Below are positions 9,871 through 22,387 of a stretch of DNA of 39,377 nucleotides, piece by piece; position 1 is the first letter of the stretch; each line of letters starts with the position of its first letter. Made by a program: the position numbers and the translations under genes. Under the pieces are notes generated by a model that was not told the origin of the DNA, made no database searches, and saw only the letters and a program-made list of their open reading frames with translations. This DNA is from a virus: the IMG/VR virus record IMGVR_UViG_3300045922_000817, positions 1 to 39,377 of that record. One strand, written 5' to 3'.

Positions 9871-10155
9871 TTAGCTTCTTGGGCCAGTGTTCCTAAGGCG
9901 CTCTTGCGCCATTTCCTCAACCTGCGCCAGAGCGCTTGCAAGCGACTCGGACGATTCCGACTGCCAGTCATTGAGACTCGACAACTTCGAGACCCAAAGC
10001 GTCATGATAGGCGAGCGGCGTATCTCCTCATCGCCCATACCGACATCCCGCATCGCCTTCAGAGCGCGAGCAAAGCCGTTGGCCAAAACCACCGGATTAC
10101 ATGCATTCTGAACAAACAATGCCTCAGACGCTATTTGCTGAAGAGTGTTATTCAT
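9871..10155 (-). CDS. 94-aa phage protein, first gene of the late cluster
   Basis: 94 aa, ATG at 10155 with AGAGGTG upstream. The pattern VQNACNPVVLANGFARAL followed by PIMTLWVSKLSSL matches a small helical phage protein family I recall from other phages (Q-[DN]-A-[CS]-N, then F-x-x-x-[ML]-K, then S-K-[IL]-[AS]-S-L). No biochemical role for that family is known to me. It is the most upstream gene of the minus-strand late cluster and faces the serine recombinase across a 250-bp spacer. The late promoter may lie in that spacer. Confidence 0.75.
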   Translation of the reverse strand: MNNTLQQIASEALFVQNACNPVVLANGFARALKAMRDVGMGDEEIRRSPIMTLWVSKLSSLNDWQSESSESLASALAQVEEMAQERLRNTGPRS

Positions 10156-10405
10156 CCGACACCTCTTCCGAAGCCTCGGCGAGTATCTGGAACTGGAGTT
10201 TTACGCTTTTATCGCCACTTTGAGATTTCATGGTTTGTCCTTTGTCCGTATGGTTTGCTTGTCCATAAGGGCCAATTTTCGAAAAATTGGCCTCGAAAAA
10301 TTTTTTAAATTTAAATTTTTAAAAAAATTCAATAAAAAAATCAAAATTTTTGTATGTGAGCATGGTTGCTCATCACAGACAAACCAGACAAAAGGGAAAG
10401 TAATC
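10156..10405. promoter_or_regulatory. Divergent intergenic region with a very AT-rich tract
   Basis: A 250-bp spacer between the late cluster (leftward) and the serine recombinase (rightward). Positions about 10285-10353 are almost pure A/T, with long A and T runs, in a genome that is otherwise GC-rich. A palindrome GGCCAATTTT-CG-AAAAATTGGCC sits at its left edge (about 10270-10292). Promoters for both directions should lie here, and the tract would be easily melted or curved. A recombination site for the adjacent recombinase is another option. I could not fix a -35/-10 pair. Confidence 0.55.
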
Positions 10406-11128
10406 ATGCGTGTGGCGATTTACGTGCGGGTCTCGACCAAAACCCAATCAACAGAGATGCAGCTAGAAGAGATAGAGCGTTATATCTCCGCTCGCGGCTG
10501 GCAAAAGGGACCGCTGTACGAAGACATCGGAACGGGACGAAGCGACCAACGCCCCGCATACAAACGGTTGATGGAAGACGCAGCGCGAGGACACATTCAA
10601 GCTGTCATCGTGTGGAAACTCGACCGCTTCGGTCGAAGCGTGAAGCACTTACTCACTGCGCTGCAAGACCTACAAACGTTCGGCGTCGCCTTCATCTCCG
10701 TCCGCGACCACATGGACTTCACAACCCCAGCAGGACGGATGATGATCACCATGCTCGCCGCAATCGCAGAGTTCGAAGCAGACCTCATCCGCGAGCGCGT
10801 GCGCGTTGGCGTAGAAGCCAAAATTGCCAAAACCGGCAGGTGGGGCCGCCACAAAGGCGAGGAAAGCAAGTGGAAGCACCTCATCCCACAGCTCGACGCG
10901 CTCCTTGCCACAAAGAAAAGCTACCGAGCTATCGCCCGCGAACTCTCTTGCCCAGCATCCTTTGTGCGAGCTTACGTCCTTCGGAAGCATCCGCCAGCGC
11001 CACAGGCGGAAGCACCACGCGACATTGAAGCGAGTGAACAGACTCCGCTGAGAAGTGCTCAACCGTTTGGACAGCAGCCCCACTGTCGCGAAGGTGGCCA
11101 CCAAATGCCGACTTCAACGCCGTGCTGA
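10406..11128 (+). CDS. Small serine recombinase (resolvase/invertase family)
   Basis: 240 aa from the ATG at 10406, with AGGGAAAG just upstream. The catalytic domain fits the family: VAIYVRVST with nucleophile Ser10 and Arg8, the arginine cluster WKLDRFGRSV (about 70-79, Arg74 and Arg77), and the dimer helix EFEADLIRERV. A hinge (TGRWGRHKG) leads to a helix-turn-helix, KKSYRAIARELSCPASFVRA, at about 183-202. The last ~35 residues look unstructured and overlap a minus-strand gene by 200 bp. The family does resolution, inversion or integration at short sites. Here it could resolve genome dimers or act on phage DNA, but no target site pair was found. Confidence 0.88.
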   Translation: MRVAIYVRVSTKTQSTEMQLEEIERYISARGWQKGPLYEDIGTGRSDQRPAYKRLMEDAARGHIQAVIVWKLDRFGRSVKHLLTALQDLQTFGVAFISVRDHMDFTTPAGRMMITMLAAIAEFEADLIRERVRVGVEAKIAKTGRWGRHKGEESKWKHLIPQLDALLATKKSYRAIARELSCPASFVRAYVLRKHPPAPQAEAPRDIEASEQTPLRSAQPFGQQPHCREGGHQMPTSTPC

Positions 11129-11878: not shown

Positions 11879-12345
11879 ACGAAAATAGCGGCGCAGGCTA
11901 CGGCGCAGGCTCCGGGGACGGCTCCGGCGCGGGCTATGGCGACGGCGACGGCTACGGCGACGGCGACGGCTCCGGCTACGGCGACGGCACCGGCTACGGC
12001 CTCGGCGACGGCGACGGCCACGGTTCTGATGCCGGTGATGGCTACGGCTACGGCTACGGCGACGGTACCGGCTACGGCTACGGCTACGGCTACGGCGAAG
12101 GCACCGGTTCCGGCACCAGTGACGGCTACGGTTACGGCTACGGCTACGGTGATGGCTACGGTTACAGCGGCGGCTATGGCTACGGCTTCGGTTACGGCTA
12201 CGGCTCCGGCTACGGCGACGGCTACGACGACGGCTATGGCAACGGCTACGGCGACGGCTCCGGCTCCGGCTCTGCCGACGGCGGCGGCTACGGCTACGGC
12301 TCTGGCGACGGCGCCGGTTCTGCCAATGGCAAAGGGTACGGCTGA
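11875..12345 (+). CDS. Gly/Tyr/Asp-rich low-complexity protein, copy 1
   Basis: 156 aa from the ATG at 11875 (MNENSGAGYGAGSG), which overlaps the upstream stop. The protein consists almost entirely of G alternating with Y, D, S, T and a few F, A, N and E, for example GYGDGDGYGDGSGYGDG. Nearly every second residue is glycine. Codons are highly uniform (GGC, TAC, GAC). There is no signal peptide, cysteine or hydrophobic segment. The reverse strand is also open but encodes Ala/Val repeats and lacks an SD and a partner gene, so the plus frame is preferred. Function is unknown. Candidates are a disordered or phase-separating protein, or a DNA mimic given its acidity. Confidence 0.7.
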   Translation: MNENSGAGYGAGSGDGSGAGYGDGDGYGDGDGSGYGDGTGYGLGDGDGHGSDAGDGYGYGYGDGTGYGYGYGYGEGTGSGTSDGYGYGYGYGDGYGYSGGYGYGFGYGYGSGYGDGYDDGYGNGYGDGSGSGSADGGGYGYGSGDGAGSANGKGYG

Positions 12346-12346
12346 A

Positions 12347-12393
12347 TGAGGTATCGACGGCAAGGGAGAAGAGACATGCACGACGAAGCGCGC
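12347..12393 (+). repeat. 47-bp direct repeat, copy 1
   Basis: It matches 12820-12866 with three mismatches. Each copy carries a GGGAG/AGGAG ribosome site and an ATG followed by a frame starting MH[DG]EAR. It marks the boundary of a duplicated module. Confidence 0.9.
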
Positions 12394-12429
12394 AAAGCGA
12401 TCGAGGTTATTCCCGAGTGGAGACGATGA
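12376..12429 (+). CDS. 17-aa leader peptide, remnant of the DUF6948-like C-terminus
   Basis: The complete frame is MHDEARKAIEVIPEWRR, with GGGAGAAGAG upstream and a TGA that overlaps the ATG of the second Gly/Tyr-rich gene. It matches the last residues of the 11564-11878 protein (EEARQAIEAIPEWRR). The likely history is duplication of the coupled gene pair followed by loss of most of the first gene. What remains would still load ribosomes and couple translation into the second copy. Confidence 0.65.
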   Translation: MHDEARKAIEVIPEWRR

Positions 12430-12818
12430 ATCAGCATTACGGCCCCGGCACCGGCTACGGCTACGGCTTCGGCGACGGCGAAGGCACCGGCTCCGGCAAC
12501 AGCGACGGCAACGGCAACGGCTACGGCGACGGCTCCGGCTCCGCCGACGGCTCCGGCTACGGTTACGGCTACGGCGACGGCTACGGCTTCGGCTCCGGCT
12601 ACGGCTCCGGCTACGGCTTCGGCTCCGGCTACGGCTGCGGCTCCGGCGACGTTGGCGGCTACGGCTACGGCTTCGGCGACGGTGACGGCGACGGCTCCGG
12701 CGCCGGCTACGGCGACGGCTACGGCTACGGCTACGGCTACGGCGAAGGCTCCGGCTACGGCTACGGCTACGGCGAAGGCTCCGGCTACGGCTACGGATCC
12801 GGAGAAGGGGACGGATGA
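12426..12818 (+). CDS. Gly/Tyr/Asp-rich low-complexity protein, copy 2
   Basis: 130 aa from the ATG at 12426 (MNQHYGPGTGYGYGFGDGEG). It has the same composition as copy 1 but a different order of repeats, with more GSGYG and GFGSG units and one cysteine (GYGCGSGD). It ends in YGSGEGDG. The start overlaps the stop of the 17-aa leader, as copy 1 overlaps its upstream gene. The copies are paralogous in layout, yet the repeat units cannot be aligned one to one, which fits repeat slippage after duplication. Function is unknown. Confidence 0.7.
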   Translation: MNQHYGPGTGYGYGFGDGEGTGSGNSDGNGNGYGDGSGSADGSGYGYGYGDGYGFGSGYGSGYGFGSGYGCGSGDVGGYGYGFGDGDGDGSGAGYGDGYGYGYGYGEGSGYGYGYGEGSGYGYGSGEGDG

Positions 12819-13244: not shown

Positions 13245-14126
13245 GTGCTTCGTGGCTTGGATTTGTTTTCAGGAATTGGTGGCATCGCCATCGCGCTTCA
13301 GCGATGGGTGCGGCCGGTCGCCTACTGCGAAATCGACGCTGCGGCGCAGAAAATCCTTGCCCGCCGAATCCTCGAAGGGAAGCTCCCCGCCGCTCCTATC
13401 TGGGACGACGTGCGAACACTGCGCGCCGAAGCCATCGGCTCGCCGATCGACATCGTCTACGGCGGCTTCCCGTGCCAGGACGCATCCGTTGCTAACTGCG
13501 CTGGCAAGGGCGTGGATGGAGAGCGAACCGGCCTGGTGTGGCATATCCTCAGGCTTGCCAACGAGACGAAAGCGCCGCTCGTCTTCCTCGAAAACGTCCC
13601 TGGAATCCGCACCCGTGGCGCAGAAGCGGTGGGGAAAGCGTTGGCCGAAGCAGGGTACGATTGTCGCTGGGATTTGTTTTCCGCTGCCGAAGTCGGTGCG
13701 CCACATCTCCGAAAACGTTGGTTCCTGTTGGCCGCCCACGCCGACCGCCTCGACCTACGGAAGCAACCGGACCGATTTCGTGACGCTTTGGCCGACGCCA
13801 CGAGCGACCGACGGGAGCAAAGGCTCTCGTTCGATGGCGGGGGCTCGGAACGCCCTCAAGAGAAAGGGATTCGGCGGTGCCGACCTTCAGTCGGCGGTGC
13901 TTTTCGCAACGCCAACGGCGCGCGACTGGAAGAGCGGCAAAGCTTCGAAGGCGACGCTCGCCCGAAATTCGAGGCCGCTGTCGGAACAGATTGGTGGGCA
14001 TTTGAACCCGACGTGGGTCGAGTGGCTCATGGGGTACCCAACCGGGTGGACCGCCTTCGAATGCTCGGTAACAGCGTCGTGCCTCTTCAAGTCGAACTAG
14101 CATTTCGCGAGCTCGCCGGGCTCTGA
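13245..14126 (+). CDS. C5 cytosine DNA methyltransferase (Dcm-like)
   Basis: 293 aa, GTG start with GGAAGG about ten bases upstream. It transfers a methyl group from SAM to cytosine C5. Motifs appear in order: I DLFSGIGGIAIAL (6-18), IV GGFPCQDAS with nucleophile Cys77, VI ENVPG (116-120), VIII HLRKRWFLLA (154-163), and X LGNSVVP near the C-terminus. The target-recognition region between VIII and X is short and variable, and the specificity cannot be read. Odd feature: the +1 frame (about 13640-14100) is also open and resembles a tail I have seen attached to other Dcm-like proteins. Next to it lies a dense (CG)n palindrome array, a possible substrate. Confidence 0.9.
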   Translation: MLRGLDLFSGIGGIAIALQRWVRPVAYCEIDAAAQKILARRILEGKLPAAPIWDDVRTLRAEAIGSPIDIVYGGFPCQDASVANCAGKGVDGERTGLVWHILRLANETKAPLVFLENVPGIRTRGAEAVGKALAEAGYDCRWDLFSAAEVGAPHLRKRWFLLAAHADRLDLRKQPDRFRDALADATSDRREQRLSFDGGGSERPQEKGIRRCRPSVGGAFRNANGARLEERQSFEGDARPKFEAAVGTDWWAFEPDVGRVAHGVPNRVDRLRMLGNSVVPLQVELAFRELAGL

Positions 14127-14169: not shown

Positions 14170-14520
14170 ACGCGCGCGCGGGGCTTAGACGGCGGTCAGT
14201 ACACGCAACAGCCCGCCCACGCGCTCCCCCACGCCTTCCCCCCCACATATCACGCGCGCGCGCGCGCGCGTAATATGTGGGCCGCTTCATCTAACGCGCG
14301 CGCGCGCGCGTTAGATGTTCGCTGATTCGTTTACCGGCAGAATACAGCGCCGAATTCTTCAATGATTTCAAGGCGCATTCAACCGGAATTCGCTAGGCTC
14401 GAATACTCTAGTGGACGAACCGACCAGGCATGGAACGCGCGCGCGCGCGTTCTACCACGCGCGCACGCGCGCGTATTCCAACATGCGCGCGTGATCGCGC
14501 GCGCGGGCGCGCGTGTTTAA
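14170..14520. repeat. Array of (CG)n-core palindromes
   Basis: At least five hairpins share a long alternating CG core but have different arms. At 14242-14281 a 40-bp palindrome has arms CCCACATAT and one mismatch. At 14288-14317 a 30-bp palindrome with arms CATCTAA is perfect. At 14433-14452 a 20-bp palindrome with arms GAA is perfect. Near-palindromes follow at about 14455-14475 and 14479-14518. A further CG run lies at about 14170-14180. No coding frame is supported. Alternating CG of this length favours Z-DNA or cruciform extrusion. Function is unknown. Confidence 0.85.
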
Positions 14521-15289: not shown

Positions 15290-15504
15290 GACGCATCCCG
15301 TATTCTCCCCGAATACGCCCTTCGGTTCCGACAGACACATCGCGCGTACCGACTGCCGCAGAATAAGCCTCAGAATACGGCTTAAACGCCTTCAGGGGAC
15401 GCCCGCGCCGCGCGCCCGTACCATGACCACTCCCACGCCCGTCCGACGCAATAGAAGGCCGCCTAGGCCGTATTCTCCCCGAATCCGCCTGGCGGTCTCG
15501 CGTG
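15290..15504. repeat. Non-coding stretch with repeated CGTATTCTCCCCGAAT words
   Basis: No supported gene. The word CGTATTCTCCCCGAAT occurs at about 15299 and 15470, and CAGAATACGGC occurs at about 15372. They belong to a GAATACG motif scattered through 14.3-15.9 kb. The rest is GC-rich and featureless to me. Confidence 0.6.
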
Positions 15505-15597
15505 CACGCAGGCGCGCAGGCATGCAGGCGCGCAGGCATGCAGGCGTGCAGGCATGCAGGCGCGCAGGCGTGCAGGCGCGCAGGCGCGCGGGCGCGC
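15505..15597. repeat. 8-bp minisatellite, about 11 units of [CT]GCAGGC[GA]
   Basis: Units alternate between CGCAGGCG, CGCAGGCA, TGCAGGCG and TGCAGGCA, then decay to CGCGGGCG and a CG run. Eight is not a multiple of three, so the repeat would shift any reading frame. Open frames crossing it are artefacts of the repeat. Confidence 0.85.
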
Positions 15598-15991
15598 GCG
15601 TGAAGCGTCGGGTCCCTCGCGTCGAGCTCGTGCGCACACAGGCAGAGTACGCAGCGCGTTAGAGGCGCTCACGCGCACACAGGCAGAATGCGCAGCGCGT
15701 CAGAAGGTACTCGGTCGGACCCTCGCGCGCGCGCGCGGGCGAACGCGTGAAGCGCCGGGTCCTTCGCGTCGCGCTCGAGCGCATGCAGGCAGACTACGCA
15801 GTGAGGCAGAGGGCGCTCGGTCGGACCTTCGCGTGCGCGCGCGGGCCCGCGGGCGTGCGAGCGGGCGGGCGTGCGCGTGAAGCATCGGGTCCCTCGCGTC
15901 GCGCTTGTGCGCACACAGGCAGAATACGCAGTCAATCAGCGCGCGCTTGGACACGTTCAGGCGCGAAGCCTCGGTTCCTTCGCGCGTCTCG
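15598..15991. repeat. Degenerate tandem repeats of about 130-147 bp
   Basis: A ~57-bp element starting GCGTGAAGC, containing CGGGTCC-[CT]-TCGCGTCG and ending CAGGCAGA-[GCA]-TACGCAG, occurs at 15598, 15745 and 15875. A partial copy of its 3' part lies at 15671 and a degenerate copy of its 5' part at about 15961. A second word, CTCGGTCGGACC followed by a CG-rich run, occurs at about 15710 and 15815. Several long frames are open on both strands, as expected for repeats without A/T-rich stops, but none has an SD or protein-like composition. Confidence 0.8.
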
Positions 15992-16020
15992 ATCGCGGAT
16001 CGAAGCACCCGAATAGCCCC

Positions 16021-16335
16021 TGATCACAATAACTACCGAACATTATTGATCTAAAATTGGGTGTGATCACGTGCGATCACACTTATGATCACACTTTTGA
16101 TCACACTAAGTATATAATATTATTAGTATATATATATATATTATTAGGTGTGATCAGGTTTTTTAGAATTTAAAATCTTTAAGAGAGAGAGTTCGTATAA
16201 ACAGATTTTTGTGTTCCTAAAATTTCATAGGGCTCTATGTTTAAATTTGAGATCACGGTGATCACACCTGAAATTTGAGGTTATTCTCCAGTGATCTTCG
16301 AACCTTAGTGTGATCAAAAATGTGATCACTTCCCT
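16021..16335. other. Candidate replication origin: GATC iterons around an AT-rich unwinding region
   Basis: Twelve GATC sites lie in 306 bp (16022-16327); about one would be expected by chance. Most sit in TGATCAC or TGTGATCAC contexts. Four form a tandem set at 16065, 16075, 16087 and 16099, spaced 10-12 bp. They abut a pure A/T segment (about 16110-16147, mainly TATATA/ATTATT). A second group lies beyond it at 16152, 16251, 16260, 16293, 16312 and 16324. Iterons plus an AT-rich melting element beside a primase-helicase gene is the layout of many theta-type origins. The initiator is not identified. A regulatory operator cluster is the main alternative. Confidence 0.6.
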
Positions 16336-16485
16336 GCACACACGCGCACACACCCGGCGCTTCGAAGGCGCTCAACCTTGACGCAACGCGTTGTAAAACT
16401 GTGAGATGCCGCAGGCGTGTGCTTCCCCTCTTTCCCGCGATGGATGTCGGGAGTTGCTGAAAACGCTGCGCGTTAGATGCTGTCG
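16336..16485. other. Spacer between candidate origin and primase 3' end
   Basis: Contains a short CA/CG repeat (about 16338-16356) and a GGCGCTTCGAAGGCGCT near-palindrome (about 16357-16373). No gene or clear terminator was seen. Confidence 0.4.
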
Positions 16486-19005
16486 TTAGCCTTGCGTCTG
16501 AAGCGGGATGCGCACGGCAGGCTCGACCCTAGCGTACCGACCGCCGAATCGGTGCCGTATGCGACTGGCGCCGGGCAGAAGCGCCAGTAGCTGGCCGAAT
16601 TGCCCAGCCTGGTTCCGAGGAAGCGTTTTCTTAAGATCGGCGTTGTTCGTGCGCACTATGAGGTAATCGCCGACGACATCGAACCCGTGGCCCTGAAGAT
16701 CTGCGCGTTCCACACGACCTTCGTCTGACTCGTGCGATGCGTCCAAGATGCGCTCGATGGCTTGGGCGACGGACACCACGGTGGTGCGCTCAATGCGCCC
16801 GAAAGTGTCCTTGTGTGCGATCGAGATGCGGTGGGCGAGAACGGATCCGAGACACTTCTCCTCAAGTGTTTCTTCTTCTGCGCGGTTGAGCGCTTGGAAC
16901 TCCAGGCCATCGACTAGTTCGCGCGCTTGCTCAAGGGTGAGTGCTTCGTCCGAGGTGACCGTAGCGGTACCTGCAAGGACGACTGCAATGTTCTCGGCAA
17001 GACGTCCTGGACAGTTACCGGACAAGGCGACTTGGATTGCTGTAACGTTTTCGCGGAACTGCTCCCACCGTCGCATCATCCTTGTGAGGAGTCGAGCGCC
17101 GAACTTGTCGTCGATATGGCGGTAGGCTTCCTTGGCGGCAGCGTACTGCTGAGCTTGCTTTACCGGGTCGCTTTCTCTTCTGGCCAGCACGGACAAAAAG
17201 CGCGAGCGATCCTGTGGCTCGCGGAGTGGTGAAGCCACTGCGCACATCATGAACGACGACACACACCGGAACTGTTGGCCCTCACCGTCGGCGGTCCCTT
17301 TGGTAATCAGGTTGTCGGGAGTTGCGTCGTACGACGAACGTGCAAGCACGATGACTCGTTCGATGGCGTGGTTGGTGCGCTCGTTGTCTTCGGAGAGTTC
17401 GATGTCGTCGCACACGACTGGCATTGCCGCCATTCTTACGTCTTGGCGGATACCTGCTTCGGTCGATTCGCTCCCGCGCTTCACAATAGCGCGTTTACCG
17501 AAAACCTTTGTGACAACGGCATCAACGAACGCGGTCTTTCCGACACCTGGTGGGGCGATAAGCTCAAGGTGAGGTCTCTTGCGGAGTGCGCCGCACAAGG
17601 GTGCGGTTGCGAGCCATCCCGCAACAATGAGTGCCGATTTTGGGGCGCGCCATTGTAGGGTGTTGCACGCTTCTACCAACTGTCGTCCTTCGTCGCAGGT
17701 GAGTTCTTCTGTGGCGAATGGTGGTAGTACTCGGTCCCGAGTGAAAACGATTCCGTTCGAACTGGCTTCGAGTAGGTTCCGCGCTTCACCTTCTTGGCTG
17801 ATCACTTCGTCGCCGCGGTGGTACACGAGCTTGTTTTCAGCGACTTCCCATACGCCGCATCCGCGTGCTGCGGAAGATCGGTTGAAGATGCCCCGCTGGC
17901 GGCATCGCTCCATGAGGAACGATCCGGCGCCAACCCAGTTGGCGCTTATGACCGCGCCTTCCTTGTTTCGTTTGGGGAAGAAGTGCTGCCAGAATTCGAG
18001 TGGCATAAGTTCCGTGAGGCTTGGTGAACAAAGCGCTGTGGATCCGAGGGACAGCACCGAGTAGTTAGAGCGGCTGATGAAGTAATACTTCCGTCCGTTG
18101 TAGCCGAGTGGGCGCACGTATTTCTCGACGTCACCGTCGATGGGTGTTTGTTGAGCGGCTTTTTCTTCCAGGACTATAGGCGGTTCTTGTGGGGCCTGTG
18201 CGAGTCTTCCTAGAGCGCCGATGCGGGCGCGAAACCACTGGAGCATGTTTTTGAGTTCGCGCTCGAACACGTCTGGCGGTTTCGGTTCTTGGTATGAGGC
18301 ATTTCTTTCGCGGAGCTTTTGCTCGACGATCGTTTCGTCATGCGTATGGTCCCAGAGCCAGCGCCCGTAGGTGAGTAGGTCGTGATGTCTTTCGCCTGGG
18401 ATGACGTCGCGAGAGCCGCCGTGCGGCGACACGTCCGGTTCATCGTCGGGCAGTTCTTCGAAAGGTTTCTCGTGGTCGAAGCAGCGGAGCATCCACGGTG
18501 GTGCTTCTGCGAGTTCGCACTCTCCTGGTCGGAGTCCCCCGCCAGCATCGGAGTCCCATCGGTATTCCCACGGTTCCAACGGCTGGTTGGTTTTTTCGCA
18601 CCAGGAGACGACGGACGGGGGCGCGACGAAGTAGTGCCCGTTGCCTCGGACGTGAGCGGTAGCGGCGTTACTGGTACCGCCGAAGAGCGGTTGGATGCCT
18701 TTTTTCAGGCGCGGCGTGTATTTAAAGTAGATGTGGTAGCCATCGCGCGAGCGCACGCGCCATGTGCGCGGGAACAATGCGAGGTCTTGTTGGCTTGCTC
18801 CGTGGTCAAGATCGACGCCGATGACGCCGGAGATTTGTCCGGTGGCGATGCCGATGTTGTAACCGACCAGTCCGGAGAAGCGCGCCTGGAGTGGCTCTTC
18901 GAGCATTTGCCGCCACTTGTAACCCTTGCTTGGGACTTTCGAGTTCCGCGCGAGAGCGAATGTTTTCAGACCGTACTTCTCAAGCTCCGCTGCCGATTCG
19001 AACAT
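16486..19005 (-). CDS. Primase-polymerase/helicase fusion protein
   Basis: 839 aa, ATG at 19005 with GAGGG upstream. The N-terminal part (1-180) is an archaeo-eukaryotic-type primase-polymerase: IGIATGQISGVIGVDLDHG gives the metal pair D65/D67, RSRDGYHIYFKY gives the catalytic His91, and VRGNGHYFVAPPSV follows at about 119-132. A linker leads to a C-terminal helicase of the D5/superfamily 3 kind with Walker A IAPPGVGKTAF (483-493) and Walker B PVVCDDIEL (529-537). Such fusions unwind the origin and lay down primers. The gene's 3' end faces the candidate origin. No phage DNA polymerase was found, so the host replicase is probably used for elongation. Confidence 0.88.
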   Translation of the reverse strand: MFESAAELEKYGLKTFALARNSKVPSKGYKWRQMLEEPLQARFSGLVGYNIGIATGQISGVIGVDLDHGASQQDLALFPRTWRVRSRDGYHIYFKYTPRLKKGIQPLFGGTSNAATAHVRGNGHYFVAPPSVVSWCEKTNQPLEPWEYRWDSDAGGGLRPGECELAEAPPWMLRCFDHEKPFEELPDDEPDVSPHGGSRDVIPGERHHDLLTYGRWLWDHTHDETIVEQKLRERNASYQEPKPPDVFERELKNMLQWFRARIGALGRLAQAPQEPPIVLEEKAAQQTPIDGDVEKYVRPLGYNGRKYYFISRSNYSVLSLGSTALCSPSLTELMPLEFWQHFFPKRNKEGAVISANWVGAGSFLMERCRQRGIFNRSSAARGCGVWEVAENKLVYHRGDEVISQEGEARNLLEASSNGIVFTRDRVLPPFATEELTCDEGRQLVEACNTLQWRAPKSALIVAGWLATAPLCGALRKRPHLELIAPPGVGKTAFVDAVVTKVFGKRAIVKRGSESTEAGIRQDVRMAAMPVVCDDIELSEDNERTNHAIERVIVLARSSYDATPDNLITKGTADGEGQQFRCVSSFMMCAVASPLREPQDRSRFLSVLARRESDPVKQAQQYAAAKEAYRHIDDKFGARLLTRMMRRWEQFRENVTAIQVALSGNCPGRLAENIAVVLAGTATVTSDEALTLEQARELVDGLEFQALNRAEEETLEEKCLGSVLAHRISIAHKDTFGRIERTTVVSVAQAIERILDASHESDEGRVERADLQGHGFDVVGDYLIVRTNNADLKKTLPRNQAGQFGQLLALLPGASRIRHRFGGRYARVEPAVRIPLQTQG

Positions 19006-21436: not shown

Positions 21437-22387
21437 ATGACTGCATTCGCTCGCACTGCGGTCGTGCTAATGCTTGGGCTTTTGACGCCCTTGCATGCCG
21501 ACACGCGTCTTATCAATGGCTCGCCGGTGCCGCCGGAAGAGCATCCTGAGATCATCAACATTCGCACTGGGAGTGCTGGGTGTACTGCTACGGTGATTGG
21601 CCCGAGGGTGGGTATTACCGCCGCTCACTGTGGTGCCAATGGGGCCACGACGCAGGCTCGCATCAACGGCAAGGTTTACTCCGGTAGGATTACGCGTTCG
21701 AGCCTTTATCCGCGTCGGGATCACGACGTGGCACTCATCCTCTTCTCCGAGGTGGTAGCGCTGCCGCCGGGCAAGAGTTACATGACGGTTACGACAGTAG
21801 CGCCGTCGGTCGGCATGGTGTTGCGGTTGTTTGGCTATGGCTGCACAAGCGCCGGCGGCGGCGGCGGCAACGATGGCGTGCTTCGGCGCGGTGACACGAG
21901 GGTGACGGGCTTCTCCGGCTTCGACGCCGTGTCGAAGACCGTTGGTGGTGCTGCTCTCTGCTATGGCGATTCGGGCGGTCCTGGGTTGCGCGAGGTAGGC
22001 GGTCGGTGGCTACTGACGACGATTAACTCCAAGGGCAACATCAGGGACACGAACTACACGGCGCGTCTCGATTTGCCGGAGTCGAAGGCGCTGTTTGACG
22101 ATTTCATCGCGGCGAACAAGGTCGATATTTGCGGCATCAACAGGGATTGCTTCGGTGCCGCACCGCCTAGCGGTGATATTGTCGTGGAAAACGAGGCGGT
22201 GAAGATTGTCGTCACTCGAAAAACGCAGTCGTTGGATATCGACTACGTGAGAGTCACGGCTGAGAACTTGGCTCGCTTTTTGAGCAGCCAAGTCACCATG
22301 ACCGACTCGGATGTTGTCCATCCCATTGGTCCGCCACCGGACTTAGAGCATGATATTGTTAATCCCATAGGGCCTGCACAGCCCTAA
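21437..22387 (+). CDS. Exported trypsin-like serine protease (S1 family)
   Basis: 316 aa, ATG at 21437 with GAGGAG about nine bases upstream. Residues 1-21 (MTAFARTAVVLMLGLLTPLHA) are a Sec signal peptide. The mature chain begins DTRLINGS, where cutting after Arg would give the usual S1 N-terminus. The triad is His64 (TAAHC), Asp97 (HDVAL) and Ser179 (YGDSGGP). A C-terminal extension (about 230-316) contains two N/H-PIGP repeats and no recognised domain. The enzyme should act outside the cytoplasm on protein substrates. Such proteases are rare in phages. It may be host-derived cargo, a lysis aid or a modifier of host surface proteins. Confidence 0.88.
   Translation: MTAFARTAVVLMLGLLTPLHADTRLINGSPVPPEEHPEIINIRTGSAGCTATVIGPRVGITAAHCGANGATTQARINGKVYSGRITRSSLYPRRDHDVALILFSEVVALPPGKSYMTVTTVAPSVGMVLRLFGYGCTSAGGGGGNDGVLRRGDTRVTGFSGFDAVSKTVGGAALCYGDSGGPGLREVGGRWLLTTINSKGNIRDTNYTARLDLPESKALFDDFIAANKVDICGINRDCFGAAPPSGDIVVENEAVKIVVTRKTQSLDIDYVRVTAENLARFLSSQVTMTDSDVVHPIGPPPDLEHDIVNPIGPAQP

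Follow-up and report, generated by a model that had tools for sequence, protein, structure and literature searches.

A probable iteron-type replication origin beside a primase-helicase gene in an uncultivated phage, and the protein domain predicted to read its repeats

Where does an uncultivated phage begin to copy its DNA, and which of its proteins recognizes the place? The question is raised by positions 16021-16335 of virus record IMGVR_UViG_3300045922_000817, a contig of 39,377 bases that is classed as linear in IMG/VR and is referred to below, at its full length, as the window. A preliminary description of this locus proposed an iteron-type origin with 12 GATC sites, lying 150 bp from the 3' end of a primase-helicase gene. 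The cluster is confirmed: none of 2,000 dinucleotide-preserving shuffles of 16001-16335 reaches the 12 GATC found there (positions 16022-16327; shuffle mean 1.8, maximum 8), the eight TGATCA (mean 0.25, maximum 3), or the 14 GATCAC/GTGATC, and the segment is the densest cluster of these words in the window. Across the window as a whole GATC is not enriched (145 observed versus 168 expected), and G+C content is 33% in the segment versus 57% for the contig. The distance to the gene also stands, its stop ending at 16486, 151 bp from 16335. Four TGATCAC copies had been described as 10 to 12 bp apart; the spacing is right, with GATC at 16065, 16075, 16087, and 16099 (steps of 10, 12, and 12 bp), but the word is not, the second copy being CGATCAC. 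The most-repeated unit is GATCACA, of which nine copies in both orientations flank a (TA)n core (Table 1), 159 to 464 bp beyond the stop of the Prim-Pol/helicase gene. The core itself, said to be pure A/T, is nearly so, with a single G at 16126. Because the word GATCACA contains GATC, the GATC count of the array is incidental.

Table 1. Coordinates in the window of the repeat array and of the neighbouring gene
Feature	Position	Strand	Basis or remark
Iteron GATCACA, outer left	16022..16028	+	exact copy
Iteron, TGTGATC on +, within palindrome TGTGATCACG	16062..16068	-	exact copy
Three tandem GATCACA at 16075, 16087, and 16099, 12-bp spacing	16075..16105	+	
A/T core, 35/36 bases A/T, (TA)n run; presumed melting element	16111..16146	.	
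Inverted iteron, far side of core	16149..16155	-	
Iteron, outer right cluster	16260..16266	+	
Two inverted iterons at 16309 and 16321, 12-bp spacing	16309..16327	-	
Putative initiator gene, 839 aa: Prim-Pol, D5/Rep-like helicase, and C-terminal winged-helix-like domain	16486..19005	-	PF09250, phrog_35358, AF2/Foldseek
C-terminal domain (codons 705-839), predicted reader of the iterons	16489..16893	-	AF2, cassette exchange, covariation
Codon of Arg819, whose counterpart residue tracks the iteron word	16549..16551	-	mutual information, core-only tree

The surroundings of the array have features of their own. G+C-rich tandem repeats at 15500-15990, comprising units similar to GCAGGCGC together with a 130-bp repeat that contains alternating CG, directly adjoin the candidate origin on the side opposite the primase, and (CG)n palindromes occur at 14250-14330, between a methyltransferase gene and a small open frame. 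Farther off lie an 865-bp GGCTAC hexamer array (11932-12796), apparently Gly-rich coding repeats; a recombinase gene (10145-11128; phrog_125, DNA invertase), close to whose start 34 consecutive bases are A or T (10296-10329); and, among phage genes, a trypsin-like protease (PF00089) at 21437-22387. GC skew along the window tracks gene strand, with no clear switch at 16 kb, and is uninformative. Rfam and tRNA searches gave no matches. No close relative of the window was found via its primase or terminase in the collections searched, and a nucleotide search with the window matched methyltransferase pieces alone. A search for the window's own word found GATCACACnnnnGATCACAC in 18 viral contigs, in surroundings mostly without a dense array. 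One of them, an unrelated viral contig (L014), does carry a dense GTGATCACAC array at 559-640 and has 12 GATCAC/GTGATC in 820 bp.

What kind of protein does the adjacent gene encode? Its N-terminal domain is a Prim-Pol (PF09250, 3e-14), and the product matches phrog_35358, DNA primase (4e-74). An AF2 model of the whole protein has a mean pLDDT of 71.7, with a poor N-terminal part. Foldseek placed 5dgk, the Cch of SCCmec, at the top (6e-10), with 8tch at 1e-6 and MPXV E5 at about 1e-7; the structural matches comprise, besides Cch, poxvirus D5/E5, AsfvPrimPol, SaPIbov1 Rep, and the C-terminal region of NrS-1. By these matches of the model, the protein is a helicase of the D5/Rep kind. The C-terminal domain, modelled alone, is much better defined (pLDDT 90.9, pTM 0.84) and shows the element order of a winged helix, then helices, then a two-strand hairpin, Arg819 being the final residue of the first hairpin strand in the model. 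VIA-align 2 ranked the C-terminal part of SaPIbov1 Rep first for this domain (Z 4.6, rmsd 3.3, 86 residues), ahead of relaxosome and initiator-binding proteins; Cch had Z 3.3 and PriRep1, further down the ranking, Z 2.8. Such low scores agree with a shared fold for the modelled domain and are no proof of one. Foldseek of the C-terminal model against the PDB gave no match at E<=0.001, and the profile of the domain against PDB sequences gave one globin fragment alone (E 0.66). The PDB profile searches contained no sequence match to SaPI Rep or Cch, which speaks for distance, not exclusion.

Is an array at this place peculiar to one phage? Relatives were gathered by tblastn in named phages (23 records) and by a profile search of viral contigs (80 of 571 loci kept). 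They have the helicase part in common, while the N-terminal primase part differs, being a Prim-Pol, a zinc ribbon plus TOPRIM, or PriCT_2. Relatives at 24-30% identity carry short repeats in both orientations adjoining the primase gene, with unrelated words such as CCGAACGGT in Synechococcus phage S-H1, GGTAACAC in Bdellovibrio phage phi1422, and TGTAACAC in Acinetobacter phage Acjo_20; comparable inverted arrays occupy the same place with GTAACA, GTAAGA, GTTAGG, or GGGGACA. In an unweighted scan for repeated 8-mers, many loci had their strongest array no more than about 200 bp from the primase gene end. For the statistics, 87 loci were reduced to 35 representatives (<70% primase identity), and 400-bp test windows were compared with 200 shuffles each. 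A significant array (p<=0.01) was present in the 3' flank of 18/34 representatives and in the 5' flank of 1/31. At the same threshold, 1/208 test windows inside the gene, 2/244 further upstream, and 13/302 further downstream were significant, at least four of these 13 being simple repeats in the window (the 39,377-base contig) itself. The 3' flank lacked a significant array (p>0.05) in 12/34 representatives. A few have their array elsewhere (L027 before the gene, L025 and L054 further downstream), and the surroundings of the gene in L024 and L026 showed none. Contigs from prokaryote genomes, many of them cyanobacterial, gave significant arrays in 31/74 3' flanks versus 0/64 5' flanks. One relative, on an Elusimicrobia MAG contig (L295), matches residues 10-837 of the window protein, Prim-Pol included, at 28% identity, and its 3' flank has nine copies of GGGGACA, the first a few bases past the stop codon. 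An alternating CG stretch lies inside this array, as one does beside the candidate origin of the window. Dinucleotide runs of at least 8 were found in 100/218 distinct 3' flanks of relatives versus 8/217 stretches within the gene; the control stretches are coding DNA, and the runs could therefore be a general intergenic feature. Like the (TA)n run of the window, they may be the easily melted part.

These relatives bear on several proposals of the preliminary description. It had called the layout unusual for a lytic-looking phage; among relatives of this helicase it is the usual one. It had also expected sensitivity to Dam-type methylation, an idea that fares poorly, as the relatives' arrays use words without GATC, and at least six GATC per 350 bp occur in 6/218 distinct 3' flanks. 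An origin of the iteron plasmid or Vibrio chromosome 2 type under Dam control was rejected on the same ground, GATC not being conserved in the relatives' iterons. The window does encode a DNA methyltransferase (13245-14126; phrog_363), a cytosine-type enzyme to judge from how its DNA matches are named, and a GATC target for this enzyme would touch every iteron. Relatives with the primase but no TGATCAC array had been named as a sign against an origin. The word is indeed lost, but the array stays with a new word, and the protein predicted to read it changes along. The arrays of the relatives lend good support to the central proposal of an iteron-type origin adjoining the primase; its parts concerning GATC and Dam, unusualness, and separate small DNA-binding proteins are unsupported, the last since the covariation described below implicates the primase-helicase's own C-terminal domain.

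Could the cluster instead be a set of operators, at which a phage repressor or the initiator controls transcription while replication starts elsewhere? TGTGATCACA is palindromic, as many operators are. Promoter-like sites are nevertheless at the level of chance (1 found versus 0.8 expected), the array is downstream of the primase gene, with the arrays of relatives at the 3' and not the 5' end, and the covariation is explained without a separate repressor. We regard operators as improbable.

How tightly are the array and the C-terminal domain associated? Even where helicase cores are identical at 99.8%, primases can have different words and C-terminal domains, the two being exchanged as one cassette of about 550 bp. 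In one set of close relatives, eight loci with CGTAAGA/CGTCAGA and three with CGTAACA are separated by 37 fixed differences, every one of them within the final ~90 residues. The DNA of L108 and L173, two loci compared pairwise, has 94.9% identity as far as about codon 746; a divergent stretch of about 550 bp follows, covering the C-terminal codons and the array, after which identity returns to 95.6%. Among pairs with helicase cores at least 97% identical, the 140 that share a word class average 97.5% C-terminal identity and the 17 that do not average 79%, some of these 17 differing by mixed A/C class alone. A second, milder case of exchange sets L161 and L165 (GTTAGG) against L179 (GTGAGG). 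A partition (centromere) or packaging site bound by some other phage protein is also conceivable, and partition is known to use iteron-like arrays; yet the word changes along with the primase C-terminal domain, a domain without a known part in partition or packaging, and such a site is very improbable here. The array and the C-terminal domain adjoin on the DNA, and joint exchange alone could be linkage. Residues that track the word were therefore examined.

The correspondence was first spotted by eye, with C-terminal fragments set beside words, and then tested on the same loci and on loci fetched later. From 158 loci with 240 nt of flank, 130 were distinct and 124 were kept (6 had no word of 4 or more); 118 of the 124 were classed for mutual information, ranked on 44 loci under 80% C-terminal identity, and 117 were used for a tree. 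The column of Arg819 came first of 768 by mutual information (z 12.7; runner-up, 8.8). Words in ..AGG go with Trp at this column in 33/33 loci, words in ..AC with Arg or Lys in 59/60 (one His), and words in ..AGA with Tyr in 21/24, the rest having His, Ser, and Gln. The Gln reflects an alignment shift: L033 is scored Gln, with Tyr one place on in its sequence. Overall, residue and word agree in 113/117 loci. A 117-leaf tree built from only the helicase core has 13 changes of word class, each of them accompanied by a residue change at the Arg819 column. That column undergoes 16 changes in total, against 45 for the next-best column, which coincides with 11 of the word changes. A single column standing out in this manner is not what linkage alone predicts. 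The fourth base of the word is best tracked by the columns of window residues 817 and 823, in the same hairpin, which share 7/11 and 8/11 changes, respectively; a code for this base is suggestive only.

Does the correspondence extend to loci outside the founding set? Of 159 later-fetched loci, 90 were kept after removal of 10 with short flanks and 59 duplicates; 49 of these have a significant array, 44 of them with Arg, Lys, Tyr, or Trp. Residue and word agree in 43/44, many of these loci being related to earlier ones. The mismatch, L344, has Arg with a GTGAGG count, its top 7-mer being CCTCACA, perhaps a strand error of the rule; of the five others among the 49, four have His and one has Gly, the latter seemingly through an alignment shift, and all five have AGA words. 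Among non-redundant genome loci with any significant array, the top 7-mer contains ACA in 15/19 loci with Arg and 2/2 with Lys (chance, 0.147), and an AGA word occurs in 3/3 loci with Tyr/His. Some of these ACA words are far from the GTnACA type (GGGGACA, CGGGACA, GTTCACA, and CCTCACA). The window itself, with Arg819 and GATCACA as its top word, fits the Arg/ACA pattern. GATCACA falls outside the three founding word classes, however, and fits solely when read as ..TCACA; in the window the inner copies have their ACA ends facing the core, whereas in relatives such as L028, judged by eye, these ends face away from it. Exceptions are L098 (Ser with AGA), L100 (His with AC), L183 (His with AGA), and L312 (Ser with GGTCATA), and a strict code leaves unexplained L289 (Trp with CCAAACA) and L099 (Trp, no AGG array found). 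The 3' flanks of L286, L291, and L309 have CGTTCCA arrays with Arg-type initiators, outside the ACA rule.

Might the shape of the DNA suffice, without any recognition of a word? A large stem-loop or cruciform 3' of a replication gene has been proposed as the origin of pRN1 and phage BIP-1, and pRN1 requires a 100-bp stem-loop 3' of its rep gene, according to PMC4234260. The strand folds better than 100/100 shuffles (z -6.43), and two 52-nt arms, 16059-16110 and 16304-16355, are 75% complementary. Such folding arises from inverted iterons by themselves, however, and an origin defined by shape would require neither tandem direct copies 12 bp apart nor a word that tracks one protein residue. We consider this unlikely, although a little less so than the operators. 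The pRN1-type stem-loop proper, which is without iterons, was rejected as a match, iterons being present here even though the strand also folds well.

We thus return to the primase-helicase, whose C-terminal domain, judging from the covariation, probably reads the repeats of the neighbouring array. Three results come from comparing the relatives: (i) the array keeps its place and architecture, (ii) it is exchanged jointly with the C-terminal domain, and (iii) its word corresponds to a residue of that domain. It is very probable that 16021-16335 is the replication origin of this phage and that the adjacent gene product is its self-loading initiator. How might the pair work? We infer a site of initiation at which the C-terminal winged-helix-like domain of the Prim-Pol/helicase would bind the GATCACA iterons, whose opposite orientations across the A/T core would lead to the loading of two helicase rings in opposite orientations. 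The core would then melt, the loaded helicase would unwind the DNA, and the fused Prim-Pol would prime both forks, making the start bidirectional. As to the code, we lean slightly towards a reading in which the short C-terminal hairpin reads the repeat word, Arg/Lys standing for ..ACA, Tyr/His for ..AGA, and Trp for ..AGG, with the hairpin neighbours at window 817 and 823 recognizing the variable base that stands two positions ahead of the C/G, and in which domain and origin form one exchangeable cassette of about 550 bp.

If this is true, the primase of an uncultivated phage would allow its origin word to be predicted, and words may be diversifying in a way that keeps co-infecting phages or satellites from using each other's initiator. 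Initiator-origin specificity has so far been known from a few model replicons. A large environmental phage family offers a natural experiment, with many words, one reading domain, repeated switches, and clean swaps. The specificity could be tested by one substitution, origins could be located in uncultivated phage genomes, and the pairs would be candidate orthogonal initiator/origin combinations for vectors. Literature searches, limited to open-access papers, turned up no account of such an array in phages of this family, nor of the exchanged cassette or the residue code.

How does the proposed pair compare with known systems? In lambdoid phages, the O protein and its cognate iteron origin are inherited together as initiator and site; O is neither a helicase nor a primase, and its iterons lie inside the O gene. 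The Vibrio PLE uses a RepA_N initiator instead, according to PMC7145576. PMC4234260 describes pRN1 ORF904 and Bordetella phage BIP-1/BPP-1 as combining a Prim-Pol/AEP primase, an SF3 helicase, and a winged helix, with a stem-loop origin proposed 3' of the gene in pRN1 and phage BIP-1; as described there, these stem-loops are without iterons, in contrast to the window. The alpha protein of satellite phage P4 is, in the same paper, a primase-helicase fusion whose winged helix binds origin repeats. The window protein is likewise a primase-helicase fusion with a winged-helix-like order of elements in its AF2 model, P4 having been compared by description; the primase of P4 differs in being of the TOPRIM type (PMC4234260). 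According to PMC7581432, the isolated C-terminal domain of Cch2 of SCCmec binds AAGTG direct repeats downstream of its own gene. That system differs in having three iterons alone and a separate primase-polymerase, CCPol-MP. In the SaPI Rep helicases, the C-terminal domain recognizes iterons directly downstream of the helicase gene (PMC7581432, citing Ubeda 2007). Because of the precedents of SaPI Rep, Cch2, P4 alpha, and pRN1/BIP-1, the proposed mechanism is, by analogy, of a known kind. The window resembles the rep-ori of SaPIbov1 and SaPI5 in its multiple short repeats directly downstream of a putative initiator helicase gene, and its protein has, by Foldseek, a helicase fold of the Rep/Cch/D5 kind; in contrast to SaPI Rep, the helicases of this family carry a fused Prim-Pol or TOPRIM primase and are found in phage-like contigs. 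A SaPI-like initiator/origin pair is, from these comparisons, the best reading of the locus.
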